This document shows, in pieces, positions 992-9,920 of a DNA stretch of 11,648 nt. Below the pieces are notes generated by a model, which saw nothing but the letters and a program-made list of their open reading frames with translations, was not told where the DNA came from and did not search any database. Location of the stretch: the NCBI GenBank assembly GCA_016213865.1, contig JACQZL010000225.1:1-11648 (forward strand). The letters run 5' to 3'. Position numbers and translations under genes: made by a program. How positions within the stretch are numbered: position 1 is the first letter of the stretch; every line of letters begins with the position of its first letter. The stretch is from Candidatus Rifleibacteriota bacterium. Lineage in GTDB: Bacteria > UBP17 > UBA6191 > JACPRK01.

Positions 992-2161
992 ATGGACTTC
1001 AAGGACGACCCTCTGTTCGCCCAGATCTTCGAGCTCCTGCATGAGCGTTACGGCGAGCTCTCGCCCGAGGAGATGAAATCGTTCGCCAGACTGGACGGGC
1101 TCGGAGACCTTCTCGAGGAAGTCGAAGAGATGGTGGCTGCCGATCCGGAGCTCGTGGCTGCATGTGCCACAGGGTTTCCGGCTGGCCTGGTAAACGACGG
1201 AGTCGATGTGATGCCCGCGTCCGAGCACCCGGTGACTCTCCACCTCGAGTTGGATGATGAGATCCTGTTCGACCAGAAGGAGTGCCTGAGGACCTGTGCG
1301 GGCAACTGCTGCAAGGGCAAGAACTACCTGATGATCGGTCTCCCGGACATCTTTCGCATCGTGTCGGCCCCCGCTATGAAACGACTGGGTGTCCACTCGA
1401 CCGACGATCTGTACCGGCGCGACCCGCCACTCGTACAGTTGTTCTTCAACGAAGAGTACGGTCTCTTCCTGCCGTACCTGCGGTTCCTCGCCGTGGGTGC
1501 CGATAGGGCGACGTCGCCGGAGGATGCGCCGCAGAGCGTCTGCCCGTTCCTGGCGGCGATCGAAGAAGTGTGCTCGTACAATGGCAAGAAGGTCCCTGAT
1601 TGGGCTGGCCAGCAGGCCCAGGGGTGTGTCCTCTTGCGCCACAAGCCGAAAGTCTGCAGGCTGTCGCCAGTCGGAAAGTGCGCCGGCCTGGTCACGGGCA
1701 GGCTCACCTACGAGTACGCGCCGCCCGCGCTCGAGTGCCCGGCCTGCCAGACCCGGGTGTCCATCAAGCTGACCGATCACTTGTCCGGCGCCACGCTTCG
1801 GGGAGAGGACAGCCTCGACGCACGCCTGCACCGGATAGTGATGACCCGAGAGGTGCCGCTCAGCCTCGGCCAGCGGGGTCGCTATGAAGAGATCCTGAAG
1901 GAGATGTACAACATCGATGAACTGCTGGCCAGTTACGGGATCGATCGATGCCAGAGGCCATCTCTCGACGCGGTGATCGACATTGCGGTTCAAGCCTCAG
2001 AACTCCTGACATGCCGGTGGCACATGTTGACACGTGCTTATATCGCGCGCGCATGTGCGCGAATTCGCCCGGGTTCTATGCACTGGTGTGACAGGCCAAA
2101 TCGCCACCCCCCTCCGTCGGCCTCCAGCGGGTATTACACAGGGGTATGTCAGGAGGTCTGA
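992..2161 (+). CDS. YkgJ-family cysteine-cluster protein with MITE-derived C-terminus
   Basis: 389 residues, probably cytoplasmic. The family (putative zinc- or iron-chelating domain, PF03692 type) is recognised from the cluster C98-x3-C102-x3-C106-C107 followed by further cysteines C184, C194, C212, C222 and C230, with CPFL at 184-187 and the GC..RHKP..C pattern around 211-222; a CPAC pair lies at 249-252. The biochemical role of the family is not firmly known; metal or Fe-S binding is the usual proposal. The ATG at 992 is preferred because a TANNNT hexamer lies 7 nt before it; the frame is open back to 284, but that part covers the CRISPR array. Residues 1-336 look like normal protein. Residues 337-389 come from a 163-bp inserted element and read as low-quality protein (rich in C, R, H and P). 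The stop codon at 2159-2161 spans the insertion junction. The pre-insertion protein would have been 357 residues, ending with the reading frame preserved at 2166-2233. Function may be retained because the cysteine core is intact. Confidence 0.82.
   Translation: MDFKDDPLFAQIFELLHERYGELSPEEMKSFARLDGLGDLLEEVEEMVAADPELVAACATGFPAGLVNDGVDVMPASEHPVTLHLELDDEILFDQKECLRTCAGNCCKGKNYLMIGLPDIFRIVSAPAMKRLGVHSTDDLYRRDPPLVQLFFNEEYGLFLPYLRFLAVGADRATSPEDAPQSVCPFLAAIEEVCSYNGKKVPDWAGQQAQGCVLLRHKPKVCRLSPVGKCAGLVTGRLTYEYAPPALECPACQTRVSIKLTDHLSGATLRGEDSLDARLHRIVMTREVPLSLGQRGRYEEILKEMYNIDELLASYGIDRCQRPSLDAVIDIAVQASELLTCRWHMLTRAYIARACARIRPGSMHWCDRPNRHPPPSASSGYYTGVCQEV
1998..2160. mobile_element. MITE-like element, 163 bp, with TIRs and 5-bp target duplication
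   Basis: The left end CAGAACTCCTGACAT (1998-2012) and right end ATGTCAGGAGGTCTG (2146-2160) are 15-bp terminal inverted repeats with one mismatch. AGCCT occurs immediately outside both ends (1993-1997 and 2161-2165), a 5-bp target-site duplication. The element has no transposase gene and so would be mobilised in trans by a related insertion sequence that is not in the window. Inside lies a CGCGCA-TG-TGCGCG palindrome at 2048-2061. I cannot assign it to an IS family from these ends. Removing the element and one AGCCT copy rejoins the interrupted gene in frame, which strongly supports the boundaries. Confidence 0.88.
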
Positions 2162-2233
2162 GCCTCGCAGGGCAACTTCACCCCCTACGATGAGCTCGTC
2201 GAGAGACTGGTTCGCATGACCACTCGAGCGTAG
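2161..2233 (+). pseudogene. Displaced original 3' end of the YkgJ-like gene
   Basis: Immediately after the present stop codon the same frame stays open to a TAG at 2231-2233 and encodes ASQGNFTPYDEL followed by VERLVRM and TTRA, which looks like genuine protein. Joined to the upstream part at AGCCT it gives ...DIAVQASQGNFTPYDEL..., with the serine codon shared across the junction (TCA at 1997-1999 now, TCG in the ancestor). These 21 codons are the ancestral C-terminus, separated by the insertion and now untranslated. Confidence 0.8.
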
Positions 2234-5956: not shown

Positions 5957-7027
5957 TCACAGCACCGACACGGCCTTGATCTGGGCGTAGAGCGCGAGAC
6001 CCGAGGCCAGGCCCAGGACGTGGGCCGAGTGGCGAGTCACCAGGGACCAGACCGTGGCGCCGGCCACGTCGAGGCGCACGAGCACTTCGGCCGGCCCCCG
6101 CGGAGAGAGCGAGACGACGCGCGCGCGCAGGATGTTCGAGATGCTTGTCTTCTCAGGCGGCACCAGCGCCAGCGAGACGTCGCGGGCCCGCAGGAGGACG
6201 CGGGCCTGCCGGCCGACTGCCAGCTCACGCCGCGGAACGTGCAGGACGCCCTGCGGGAACTCGAGCCGGGTGAGCTGGAAGTCCTCGTCGTGACCTGCCA
6301 CGGTCACGGAGAGCACGGCCTCGACGTCGGACTCGTCGATCAGGAAAGCGTCCAGGCGCGAGACCAGCTCGGCGAGCGGCCCGTGGTCGCGCACCCGTCC
6401 ACGCTCCATCAGCACCAGGTAGTCGGCCATCCGGGCGGCCTCGGCCGTCGCGTGCGTGACGTAGACGACGGGGATGGAGAGCTCGTCGTGCAGCCGCTCG
6501 AGGTAGGGCAGGATCTCGGCCTTGCTGGCCGAGTCCAGGGCCGACAGCGGCTCGTCCATCAAGAGGAGCCGAGGGCTGGAGACGAGGGCGCGGGCGATCG
6601 CGACTCGCTGCCGCTCGCCGCCCGAGAGGCCGTCTGACCGGCGATGCAGCAGGTGCGAGAGCCCCAGAAGAGCCGTTGCCTCCTCCAGCGAGACGCGCCT
6701 CTCTCCAACCGGGACCAGCCGCACGGCGAAGTCGAGGTTGCCGCGTACGTCCAGGTGCGGAAAGACCGTCGGTTCCTGGAAGACGTAGCCCACGGCTCGC
6801 CGGTGCGTCGGTACGAAGAGGCGCCGCGAGTCGTCCTGCCAGACCTCGTCACGCACCTGCAGGAACCCGCCGGCTGGCCGCTCCAAGCCTGCCAGGCAGC
6901 GCAAGAACGTCGTTTTCCCGCACCCGGACGGGCCGACGACGGCCGCCACTCCGCGGTCGGGCCAGATCAGGTCGACCTCCAGCGCGAAGTCCTGCCGCTC
7001 CAGCCTGAACCTGGCCGCAATGCTCAC
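5957..7027 (-). CDS. modC: Molybdate ABC transporter ATP-binding protein ModC
   Basis: 356 residues; the cytoplasmic ATPase that drives molybdate import with ModB. Walker A GPSGCGKTT is at 32-40, the Q-loop FQEP at 83-86, the ABC signature LSGGE at 134-138, Walker B LLLMDEP at 154-160 and the switch histidine at 192. A C-terminal TOBE/Mop domain begins around 293 (KTSISNILRARV), the typical ModC feature that distinguishes it from other importers. The GTG start at 7027 overlaps the modB stop as GTGA, a sign of translational coupling. The frame is open further upstream, but that would overlap all of modB. It is the last gene of the operon. Confidence 0.95.
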   Translation of the reverse strand: MSIAARFRLERQDFALEVDLIWPDRGVAAVVGPSGCGKTTFLRCLAGLERPAGGFLQVRDEVWQDDSRRLFVPTHRRAVGYVFQEPTVFPHLDVRGNLDFAVRLVPVGERRVSLEEATALLGLSHLLHRRSDGLSGGERQRVAIARALVSSPRLLLMDEPLSALDSASKAEILPYLERLHDELSIPVVYVTHATAEAARMADYLVLMERGRVRDHGPLAELVSRLDAFLIDESDVEAVLSVTVAGHDEDFQLTRLEFPQGVLHVPRRELAVGRQARVLLRARDVSLALVPPEKTSISNILRARVVSLSPRGPAEVLVRLDVAGATVWSLVTRHSAHVLGLASGLALYAQIKAVSVL

Positions 7028-7704
7028 AACCGCGTCCGCTCGAAGGCCCGGTTGACCAGGTAGAGCCCGGTCAACAAGAGGAAGGAGAAAGCCAGGAGGC
7101 CGCCCGCCAGCACTTGCGCTCGAGCGTGGTCGAGCGCCTCGGCGTGGTCGTAGATGGCGATCGAGAGCACCCGCGTCACGCCCGGGATGTTGCCCCCGAC
7201 CATCAAGATGACACCGAACTCGCCCAGTGTGTGGGCGAAGCTCATCGCCGCAGCAGAGACGAACCCCCTGCGAGCGAGCGGCACGGCGACCGTGAAGAAG
7301 CGGCGCAGCGGTCCCGCCCGAAGCGTGGCCGCCACCTCCAGGGGCCGCTGGCCCACCGCCGCGAAGGCGTCCTGCAGCGGCTGGATCGCAAACGGCAGCG
7401 AGTAGAGGACCGATGCGATGACCATCCCGGTGAAGGTGAAGGCCAGGTGATGCCCACCCGCCCGTTCGAGCGCACCGCCGATGGCCCCGTTCGGCCCCAG
7501 AAGCACCAGCAGGTAGTACCCCAGCACGGTTGGCGGCAACACCAGCGGGAGCGCCACGACGGCCTCGACCAGCACCCTGCCCCTCCAGCGCGTGCGCGCC
7601 AGCCACCAGGCGAGCGGGGTCCCTCCGACGAGCAGGATGGCCGTCGTCGTCGCCGCCAGCCGCGTGGTGAGGGCTATGGTCGTGAGATCGGCGGCGTCGA
7701 GCAT
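7024..7704 (-). CDS. modB: Molybdate ABC transporter permease ModB
   Basis: 226 residues, inner membrane. About five hydrophobic segments are visible (roughly 13-32, 47-69, 88-110, 145-170 and 198-217). LPLVLPPTVLGYYLL at 52-66 is the characteristic ModB segment. The EAA loop that contacts ModC is at about 123-142 (EVAATLRAGPLRRFFTVAVP), and HTLGEFGVILMVGGNIPG at 158-175 is another hallmark. It starts 12 bp after the modA stop; a GAGGG stretch lies close before the ATG. It overlaps modC by 4 bp. Length is normal for the family. Confidence 0.95.
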   Translation of the reverse strand: MLDAADLTTIALTTRLAATTTAILLVGGTPLAWWLARTRWRGRVLVEAVVALPLVLPPTVLGYYLLVLLGPNGAIGGALERAGGHHLAFTFTGMVIASVLYSLPFAIQPLQDAFAAVGQRPLEVAATLRAGPLRRFFTVAVPLARRGFVSAAAMSFAHTLGEFGVILMVGGNIPGVTRVLSIAIYDHAEALDHARAQVLAGGLLAFSFLLLTGLYLVNRAFERTRL

Positions 7705-7716
7705 GGCCCTCGCCCA

Positions 7717-8484
7717 TCACGGCTGGCGTTCGCCGGGCAGGACGAAGCCGAAAGTCCGGAGGATGCCGCGGGCCCGTTCTCCCTGGCAGAAATCGGCGAG
7801 CTCCCCGGCTCGCGGGTCCGAGGCCGCCCTCTTCAATACGCAGTACGCCTGGTCGAGCGGTTCGTGCAGCTCCTCGGGGACCAGCACGAAGCTGCCCGCC
7901 GCTGTCAATTCGCGGCCCAGGGCCAGCGAGTAGGCGATGAGCCCGGCGTCGGCGGCGCCGCTCTCGACGAGCTGGGCGGCGTGGGAGACGTTTTCGCCGA
8001 GGACCAGCTTGGGCTGGACTGCAGCCAAGACGCCTGCCTTCCGCAAGACCTGCTCGGCCCGTTGTCCGTACGGCGCATGCCTCGGGTTGGCGATCGCGAC
8101 CTTTCGAAACCGCTCGCCGACGAGCGCGGCCAGGGTCAGTCGGGAGGCGTCACGCCCCGGCCACCAGAGGACGATGCGGCCGCGAGCATACGGGACCGGT
8201 CCACGGACGGTCAGGCCCCGGGCAGCCAGCCTGAGGGCGAAGTCGATGTCGGCCGAGAAGAAGAGGTCGAAGGGCGCGCCGTTCTCTATCTGGGCTGCCA
8301 GCTTTCCTGACGAGCCGAAGATCAGCTCCAGTTCGGTGCCCGGGTGGGCCTTGACGAACGCTTCTCGCACCTCCGACAGGGCGTAGCGCAGATCGGCCGC
8401 CGCGGCCACCCGTAGCGGTTCCGTCGCGCACGCGGGCTGGAACGTGAAGACACTGGCGATTGCCGCCAGAAGGAGTGGCTTCAT
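7717..8484 (-). CDS. modA: Periplasmic molybdate-binding protein ModA
   Basis: 255 residues. The signal peptide (MKPLLLAAIASVFTFQPACA) is probably cleaved after residue 20; a C19 is present but there is no clear lipobox. VAAAADLRYAL (26-36), IFGSSGKLAAQI (55-66), PFDLFFSAD (71-79), GENVSHAAQLVESGAADAGLIAYS at about 163-186 are the conserved ModA ligand-binding segments; residues near A28, S58-S59, V166-S167 and Y185 would hold the oxyanion. Tungstate is an alternative ligand. GGAGG (8491-8495) is 6 nt before the ATG. The ATG overlaps the regulator's stop as ATGA. The open frame runs far upstream but without family similarity, and it overlaps the regulator. Confidence 0.95.
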   Translation of the reverse strand: MKPLLLAAIASVFTFQPACATEPLRVAAAADLRYALSEVREAFVKAHPGTELELIFGSSGKLAAQIENGAPFDLFFSADIDFALRLAARGLTVRGPVPYARGRIVLWWPGRDASRLTLAALVGERFRKVAIANPRHAPYGQRAEQVLRKAGVLAAVQPKLVLGENVSHAAQLVESGAADAGLIAYSLALGRELTAAGSFVLVPEELHEPLDQAYCVLKRAASDPRAGELADFCQGERARGILRTFGFVLPGERQP

Positions 8485-9665
8485 TGGGAGCCTCCGGACG
8501 TGGATGCGCTTGGCCCGAACCGGGCCAGCACGGTCCCGGTGCGGGTGACGTCGTAGCCGGGCAGGGCCGCCAGGTCCTCGCGCAGCCGGCGGCTCTGGAG
8601 CAGGTCCAGCGTGGCCTGGACCGCGGGATGTTCGGCCGCGTCCCCCGGAATCACCAGGTCGAAGTGAACCTCCGTCAGCGGCACGAAGTCGAGCTCGCAG
8701 GCGACCGCCACCGCGGCCAGGCCCACGCCGGCGTCCGCCGCTCCTGCGGCGATCGCCCTGGCCACGGCCATATGGCTGGCGGCGAGCGTCTGGTAGCCGG
8801 CCACGCGCTCGGCCGGAAGGCCCGCGCGGGCGAGCAACGTGTCCAGGACGTCCCGACTTCCGGCACCCTTCGCCCGGTTGACGATCGTCACTCCGGGACG
8901 CGCCAGGTCCTCGATGCCACGCAGGTGCTTGGGATTGCCGCGACGCACCATCAGCCCCTGCTCCCAGCGTGCGAAGGCGACCACGAGGCCGCCACCGCCG
9001 GCGAGGGCCTTCCTGGCGTGGACCAGGTTGAACTCTCCGCTGCGCGCATCCCTCAGGTGAGAGCCGGCGATATGAACCCCGCCTTTGGCCACGGCCGCAA
9101 GGGCTGTTCGGCTGGGGGCGGGAAGCCAGCTCAGGCGCATCTCGGGCCGTGCACGTTCCAGGTGAGCGCCCAGGAGGCCCAGACCGGGATCGCACCCCAT
9201 CAGGAACGCCGTCGTCTCGAGCCGGCTCGGATCGACGAAGAGCCTGGCCAGGCTCTGCGGGCCGTCAGATTCCAGCAGACCATCGGCCGGCGAGAACCCC
9301 TCGCACAGCGCCAGTCCGTGCGTCAGGGGGTGCGCCACCAGCCGGCCGCGGACGCGCCCCACGACCACCCGCGTCGGTCCCCGCTCGGGTTTCTGCCACA
9401 TCTCCACGGGGCAGAGCGGCGTCTCCTCCGCCAGACGGAAGAGCTCCTCCACCCGGCAGCCGAAGACCCGCGCCAACTGCAGGGCAACCGAGGTGTTCGG
9501 CAAGTAATGGCCGCCCTCGATGGCGTTGATCGCCTGACGGGTCAAGCCGGTGCGCTTGGCCAGCTCCTGCTGCGAAAGGTGCGCGGCCGTGCGGAGCTCC
9601 CGCAGGTGATTGAGCAATCCGGCCTCCGCCTGACGGGCCGAGGAACGTCCTGTTCGCGTTGACAT
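8481..9665 (-). CDS. XRE-type regulator with molybdate-binding PBP-like domain
   Basis: 394 residues. Residues about 18-77 form an XRE/Cro helix-turn-helix (LRELRTAAHLSQQELAKRTG, LTRQAINAIEGG). Residues about 185-370 match the periplasmic-binding-protein-like sensor domain of the COG1910/PF12727 type: GGVHIAGSHL, WEQGLMVRRGNP, TIVNRAKGAGSRDVLD, HMAVARAIAAGAADAGVG and FDLVIP. No signal peptide is present, so it is a cytoplasmic one-component regulator, inferred to sense molybdate and control its own operon in the role ModE plays elsewhere. The stop overlaps the modA start (ATGA). The ATG at 9665 has TATACT 7 nt upstream and a 20-bp palindrome across it; an earlier in-frame ATG at 9764 would place the operator inside the gene. 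The middle part (80-185) is a linker of unclear fold. Confidence 0.9.
   Translation of the reverse strand: MSTRTGRSSARQAEAGLLNHLRELRTAAHLSQQELAKRTGLTRQAINAIEGGHYLPNTSVALQLARVFGCRVEELFRLAEETPLCPVEMWQKPERGPTRVVVGRVRGRLVAHPLTHGLALCEGFSPADGLLESDGPQSLARLFVDPSRLETTAFLMGCDPGLGLLGAHLERARPEMRLSWLPAPSRTALAAVAKGGVHIAGSHLRDARSGEFNLVHARKALAGGGGLVVAFARWEQGLMVRRGNPKHLRGIEDLARPGVTIVNRAKGAGSRDVLDTLLARAGLPAERVAGYQTLAASHMAVARAIAAGAADAGVGLAAVAVACELDFVPLTEVHFDLVIPGDAAEHPAVQATLDLLQSRRLREDLAALPGYDVTRTGTVLARFGPSASTSGGSQ
8491..8495 (-). promoter_or_regulatory. Shine-Dalgarno of modA
   Basis: GGAGG, 6 nt before ATG 8484 and inside the end of the regulator gene. It fixes the modA start and contrasts with the leaderless first gene of the operon. 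Confidence 0.7.
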
Positions 9666-9686: not shown

Positions 9687-9751
9687 ACGGCTCCCGTCGC
9701 CACCATGCTCGTGGGTCGGGAGCGACGCTAGCTCATGGGATATCTCGAGTG

Positions 9752-9839
9752 AACACAGAGACACAAAGACACGGAGCCACAGAGAAGAGTCTCATCAAAT
9801 CAGCTCCTCTGTGGTTCTGTGCCTCTGTGGCTCCGTGTT
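9752..9839. repeat. Octamer-repeat hairpin element, CACAGAGR type
   Basis: Each arm is four tandem octamers of consensus RCACRGAG-like sequence (left arm 9753-9784, right arm 9807-9838 on the opposite strand), with a loop of about 22 nt (9785-9806). The outer ends AACAC and GTGTT pair. Most arm positions are complementary, with scattered mismatches. Elements rich in ACACAGAG occur widely in environmental genomes (from memory). It sits between the 3' end of glgP and the promoter of the mod operon, both on the minus strand, so it could fold in glgP mRNA and shield or terminate it. Confidence 0.75.
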
Positions 9840-9920
9840 GATTGACGACTCTTCAGCGATCGTGGACATGCGGGTTCCCACTTCTCTGCATGCTCCCCGC
9901 AAGCCCGCGGCCCGCCGGAG

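Follow-up and report, generated by a model that had tools for sequence, protein, structure and literature searches.

Tn5 makes a target duplication of 9 bp. Rickettsia palindromic elements and a 168-bp Yersinia repeat are described as small inserts by which a host gene gains an in-frame peptide (PMC10969869, PMC2229807). These two reports and a third (PMC4853749) deal with miniature inverted-repeat transposable elements (MITEs) other than the one described here. The locus that we analyzed lies on a stretch of 11,648 nucleotides from a Candidatus Rifleibacteriota bacterium (contig JACQZL010000225.1), which we call the window. It contains a 163-bp insert that is probably a non-autonomous, MITE-type transposon, inserted with duplication of AGCCT by a PF21804 (Transposase_29) transposase acting in trans.

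The insertion and the gene that it interrupts

A sequence-only reading of this DNA had proposed a 163-bp MITE-like element with near-perfect terminal inverted repeats, with AGCCT directly on both sides and without a transposase. Direct reading bears out the length, the coordinates, the two copies of AGCCT (Table 1) and the 14/15 inverted match between the 15-bp ends, CAGAACTCCTGACAT at 1998-2012 and ATGTCAGGAGGTCTG at 2146-2160. The inverted ends lengthen to 18 bp, CAGAMCTCCTGACATRCC, with 16 of the 18 positions matching. When this 18-mer is sought with up to three mismatches, it is present in the window at both element ends only; 200 shuffles gave a mean of 0.01 and none with two, a test that is partly circular because the pattern was derived from the same two ends. 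A motif-free inverted-repeat search returned the same end pair (79% over 33 nt) in local and whole-window runs. Folding of the 163-bp element gives z scores of -3.06 as RNA and -2.52 as DNA, to which the paired ends contribute. That the element lacks a transposase is true but trivially so because 163 bp can code for no more than 54 aa; Pfam gave no match to the 389-aa read-through. Rfam yielded no match at the gathering score in the whole window, and no promoter or terminator was predicted in 1900-2300. Read outward, both 15-bp ends hold AGGAG/AGGAGGT, which is Shine-Dalgarno-like; by eye, a suitably spaced start codon is absent after it at the right junction. Together, the inverted ends, the duplication exactly at the boundaries, the known empty site described below and the short length without a transposase gene bear out the MITE-like reading.

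Table 1. Features of the insertion site, in window coordinates.
Feature	Position	Strand	Basis and remarks
Host gene, 5' part (335 full codons and one base)	992..1997	+	Homologue alignment; several cysteines by reading; without Pfam family
Left target duplication copy, AGCCT	1993..1997	.	Sequence; fits outer A...T of target preference
Left terminal inverted repeat, CAGAACTCCTGACATGCC	1998..2015	+	Direct reading, inverted-repeat search, 18-mer scan
Non-autonomous element, 163 bp, internal GC-rich hairpin at ~2043-2062	1998..2160	.	Sequence and fold
Right terminal inverted repeat, CAGACCTCCTGACATACC	2143..2160	-	Direct reading, inverted-repeat search, 18-mer scan
TGA spanning right junction, ends chimeric 389-aa frame	2159..2161	+	Reading frame
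Right target duplication copy, AGCCT	2161..2165	.	Sequence
Host gene, 3' remainder, conserved QGNFTPYDELVERLV segment, TAG stop at 2231-2233	2166..2233	+	Segment in 20/20 other homologues

The start assigned to the host gene, ATG at 992, is presumptive and yields precisely the 357 aa of a homologue, P0003. Removal of the element and one AGCCT in silico gives a joined gene of 357 aa that ends in ...VQASQGNFTPYDELVERLVRMTTRA, so the continuous frame expected upon excision is indeed restored. With the element in place, residue 336 remains S and 53 element-encoded residues substitute for the last 21 of the host protein. The element and one duplication together make 168 bp, so neither insertion nor excision shifts the frame, which may be a coincidence. 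When the 5' part of the host gene was used as the query of a protein search, 21 proteins were returned, the window's own among them. All 20 of the others align across the predicted join and have the xG(N/D/S/H)F segment; P0003 is 62% identical to the host protein, and P0002, which is 67% identical, reads ...EASHGNFVPYDDFVRALVRT. Thus, empty-site forms of the gene exist at the protein level. The sequence-only reading had named the lack of any empty-site allele as evidence against an insertion, and it is the opposite that we observe. A Pfam search with the host protein found no family, and a search of 95 NC10-phylum genomes for a P0003 homologue, run without a positive control, found it in none, so an NC10 origin of the window is improbable. 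Upstream of the host gene, at 878-951, lies a strong short inverted repeat (27 nt, 89%).

Elsewhere in the window, five CRISPR-like repeats (CCCACCCATCAGTCCACGACAACAAGGATTGAAAC) are spaced 73-75 bp apart at 32-365, and the last is degenerate, like the trailing end of an array. Palindrome-like stretches seen by eye at 2362-2472 and 9750-9842 (CCACGAAGGCACGAAG... and CACAGAGACACAAAGACACGGAG...), which the repeat search at its settings did not return, resemble repeats of environmental genomes. Among the neighboring genes at 5957-9665 are those for a BPD_transp_1 permease and for an HTH/PBP-like regulator, some homologues of which carry the names molybdate-binding or molybdopterin protein; by reading, this would be a molybdate transport cluster. 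Among the 120 regulator homologues listed, the best named one is from Candidatus Wallbacteria (63%), and five other named ones are from Chloroflexi/Chloroflexota.

Elements with the same ends in other genomes

Copies with these ends had been suggested as something to look for elsewhere, and several short elements that carry them were found in other genomes. A scan of species genomes for CTCCTGACAT-N(118-148)-ATGTCAGGAG returned 11 loci, and the outer bases of all 11 were read. A full end is present in a 161-bp element from NC10 (L001, duplication AAATT) and in elements of 178 bp (L003, duplication ACCTT) and 167 bp (L011, flanks AGTTT/AATTT) from Verrucomicrobiota MAGs. In a Lentisphaeria locus (L007; L153), both sides carry the end CTGAACTCCTGACAT, and the flanks, ATCTT/GACAT, do not match. 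L004/L018, from Rhodospirillales, is a partial pair, and L028 has flanks without a matching duplication (AGCTT/GCTTC). L002, L005, L006, L008, L009 and L010 were judged unrelated from their outer bases. A 55-bp element of the NC10 phylum (L047 in G006) has a perfect AAGGT duplication. Overall, other genomes contain separate short elements of 55-226 bp in which the duplication is perfect or has one mismatch, suggesting that short forms transpose as units. With up to two mismatches, the 16-base end occurs 28 times in five carrier genomes versus 11 times for the reversed pattern, so two-mismatch matches there are partly chance; in G005, the counts are nine versus zero, and several copies share two kinds of subterminal sequence. 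No paired cores 118-148 bp apart were found in viral contigs. A search of plasmids with distant blastn settings and the 163 bp as query gave a single 27-bp Burkholderia match (E 0.5), which was taken as chance.

Complete elements with the same ends, and thus a candidate autonomous partner of the kind that had been called for, were also found in other genomes. The exact end TCAGANCTCCTGACAT occurs at 9 places in 4 of 95 NC10-phylum genomes versus 1 place for the reversed pattern, and G001, the source of the query locus, is among the four. Among 387 Verrucomicrobiota genomes, 9 contain the exact end CAGANCTCCTGACAT, at 20 places in total versus 0 for the reversed pattern, with 2 of the places in G002, which is also a source genome. 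Both of the widely spaced inward pairs that emerged from these searches, 2584 bp in G033 and 2515 bp in G808, enclose a PF21804-type gene. The 786-aa protein of G033 (L046) matches PF21804, Transposase_29, with an E value of 4.9e-83 and has N-terminal HTH motifs; no NCBIfam model reaches its cut-off. By tblastn, the G808 element is 50.5% identical to the G033 protein over residues 4-759, and it has a perfect AATTT/AATTT duplication. Homologues of the G033 transposase are present in 10 of 95 NC10-phylum genomes. Among 240 Verrucomicrobiota genomes, 18 have a PF21804 match (16 above the cut-off), as do 8 of 349 genomes from the phylum of G005 (7 above the cut-off); none of 14 control genomes has one. 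Proteins of this family seem plentiful in public sequence databases: of 7998 candidates that were scored, 7921 match PF21804 at E <= 0.001. A tblastn search of plasmids with the G033 transposase returned one Streptomyces record only, with 20% of the query covered.

The full elements measure 2.3-2.6 kb, and the five measured ones with full-length reading frames (L046, L063, L064, L066 and L108) encode 726-838 aa. Their ends and flanks are CAGACCTCCTGACAT twice with GAGTC/GAGTC in L064 (2433 bp), CAGGGCTCCGGACAT with CATTC/CATTC in L066 (2316 bp), CAGACCTCCTGACCT with GAATC/GATTC in L063 (2615 bp) and, in a Verrucomicrobiota element, L108 (2607 bp), CTGAACTCCTGACAT with AAATT/AAATT. L046/L072 has good ends and unmatched flanks, ACCTT/AAATT, at a contig edge, and L078 (2330 bp) has more diverged ends flanked by AGTCT/AGTCT. 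We also ran a motif-free end scan on the five loci with full-length reading frames, which were selected because both motif ends had already been seen; in three of the five, the best answer was 15/15 ends with the duplications GAGTC, CATTC and AAATT. The first 15 bp of the left end in the window are the end type of these PF21804-type elements.

Not every PF21804 locus has such ends. L105, L106, L116 and L122 are long loci without an inward pair at up to three mismatches, contig ends often being close; L110 has an inward pair at three mismatches without a duplication; and many or most of the partial loci have one end or none. Because long loci without such end pairs exist, the Pfam family is probably broader than the CAGANCTCCTGACAT-type ends. 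Four genomes with short elements or ends of this type (G001, G004, G005 and G006) have no PF21804 match, and three of them are MAGs. MAGs frequently lose repeated elements. There are six such ends in G734. The five that were examined (L170, L171, L172, L178 and L180) represent a single repeat end that recurs at five sites, each close to a contig end and flanked by ANNNT. This repeat is probably a multi-copy element that is missing from the assembly.

To count end pairs, we used 163 records, namely 162 loci, some of them overlapping, and the window. Allowing up to one mismatch per end yields 13 distinct inward pairs, of which 7 have a perfect duplication, 3 a duplication with one mismatch and 3 a worse one; the reversed pattern gives 0 pairs. 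At two mismatches, 22 pairs include 8 with a perfect duplication, and the control gives 3 pairs, none of them perfect. The degenerate end was counted 34 times versus 1 in ten genomes that have elements of this kind.

Target preference was read from the flanks of 36 distinct exact ends, which represent approximately 28 insertion sites, both ends being counted at eight; a few single ends may be chance. Position -5 is A in 28 and G in 8 (a purine in 36/36), -4 is A in 26, -3 is flat, -2 is T in 25, and -1 is T in 25 and C in 7. Positions -6 to -10 show a far weaker preference. A at -5 occurs together with T at -1 at 25 of the 36 ends. This palindromic 5-bp preference near RANTY supports a 5-bp duplication. 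We considered a 3-bp duplication with ends one base longer (T-CAGA), which fits the window only and is unlikely because some elements are preceded by C (GAGTC, CATTC) and because the base preference starts sharply at -5. The AGCCT of the window fits at its outer A and T and is palindromic around its center; the inner A and T of RANTY are missing. GANTC adjoins 6 of the 36 exact ends, and PF21804-type ends next to GANTC were seen at L051, L054, L063, L094, L165 and L174. GANTC is a known methylation site of the cell-cycle methyltransferase CcrM; since the two coincide, target choice could be methylation-dependent in some hosts.

Origin of the window element

We compared bases 16-75 of 14 short-element ends and 12 full-element ends, using mononucleotide shuffles. 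The right end of L007 matches the left end of L108 with z 6.2, and its left end matches the right end of L108 with z 5.2, both being T-rich sequences for which the shuffles control partly; thus, the Lentisphaeria element keeps both L108 ends in matching arrangement. For the Rhodospirillales elements, the match is to the right end of L046, with z 11.3 and 7.1. Subterminal similarity to full elements is clear for L007 and for one end each of L028 and L013. The best score of the window element is z 3.1 (1 of 200 shuffles, in 24 comparisons), a weak match that is not convincing, so its assignment to PF21804 rests on its ends and its duplication.

This weak subterminal similarity is what would be expected if the insert were a real MITE that some other, unseen transposase had moved, one with ends of the same CAGANCTCCTGACAT motif. 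We consider this unlikely given that PF21804-type elements in two phyla agree with the window element in the 15-bp end, in a duplication of 5 bp and in the outer bases of the target. Moreover, the five paired elements longer than 2 kb and the G808 element all encode a PF21804-type protein, although only G033 and G808 were discovered from their ends. The insert could instead be the decayed remnant of a full PF21804 insertion whose interior was lost after insertion in the host gene. Internal deletion does happen, since short elements of G003 and G005 hold subterminal DNA of full ones; in the window, however, the ends and the duplication are intact, and other genomes contain separate short elements with perfect or one-mismatch duplications, so we judge such decay in place to be quite improbable. 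An assembly artefact or a chance inverted repeat, to which the single copy seen might point, is extremely improbable in view of the shuffle expectation for the 18-mer and of the boundary duplication, which is exact over 5 bp; the 20 empty-site homologues and the pair counts speak strongly against it.

The preferred reading remains a short element mobilized in trans by a PF21804 enzyme. In the predicted model, the PF21804 protein has a Tn5-like fold with an RNase H-like core of Tn5 type; a sequence search of solved structures found none at E <= 0.1. Among 26 aligned proteins, D363 and E542 (G033 numbering) are invariant and D439 is nearly so (>=90%), and we propose from this conservation that the three are a putative catalytic triad. 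The window element would consist of two transposase-binding ends flanking approximately 127 bp without a gene, and may have derived from a full element by internal deletion. A full-length element would supply the PF21804 transposase in trans; this enzyme would bind the CAGANCTCCTGACAT ends and, by the DDE chemistry that the model suggests, join them to AGCCT, a roughly palindromic target, with a 5-bp stagger. Gap repair would then double AGCCT. By this route, a PF21804 enzyme would have moved the window copy.

Comparison with known systems

A literature search for Transposase_29 returned nothing related; in a search for the end core or PF21804, among the matches listed, titles were unrelated and none had PF21804. 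A MITE-type insertion is ordinary in kind, and its likely parent family was not found described; it is possible that the insertion sequence is named otherwise in ISfinder. Tentatively, and with somewhat less than even confidence, we suggest that the PF21804 elements, together with the short forms derived from them, are a separate insertion sequence family. It would have a large transposase of Tn5 fold, ends of the CAGANCTCCTGACAT type and a RANTY target (AANTT and GANTC classes), and the window element would be a cross-mobilized satellite of it in an uncultured lineage. With the ends, the length of the duplication and the target preference proposed here, PF21804 elements, and short satellites missed by annotation, would become findable in MAGs, and the CAGAMCTCCTGACAT-type ends offer a defined substrate for transposase tests.

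The PF21804 full elements are like the window element in their CAGANCTCCTGACAT-type 15-bp ends, their 5-bp duplication and their outer target bases; they differ from it in being 2.3-2.6 kb long and having a gene, whereas the window element has 163 bp and none. The short elements L001, L003, L011 and L047 have ends as in the window, ANNNT duplications and, except for L047, a similar length, but their interiors and hosts differ. The Rickettsia and Yersinia MITEs are like the window element in being small inserts in genes; unlike them, the window insert replaces the C-terminus of its host protein, and the stop codon arises at the right junction. The Tn5/IS50 (IS4-type) transposase has a core fold like that of the predicted PF21804 protein, with an identity of ~11-12%. 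The ends of Tn5 differ from PF21804-type ends, and the 9-bp duplication by which IS4/Tn5 membership is judged differs from the 5 bp that PF21804 elements give.
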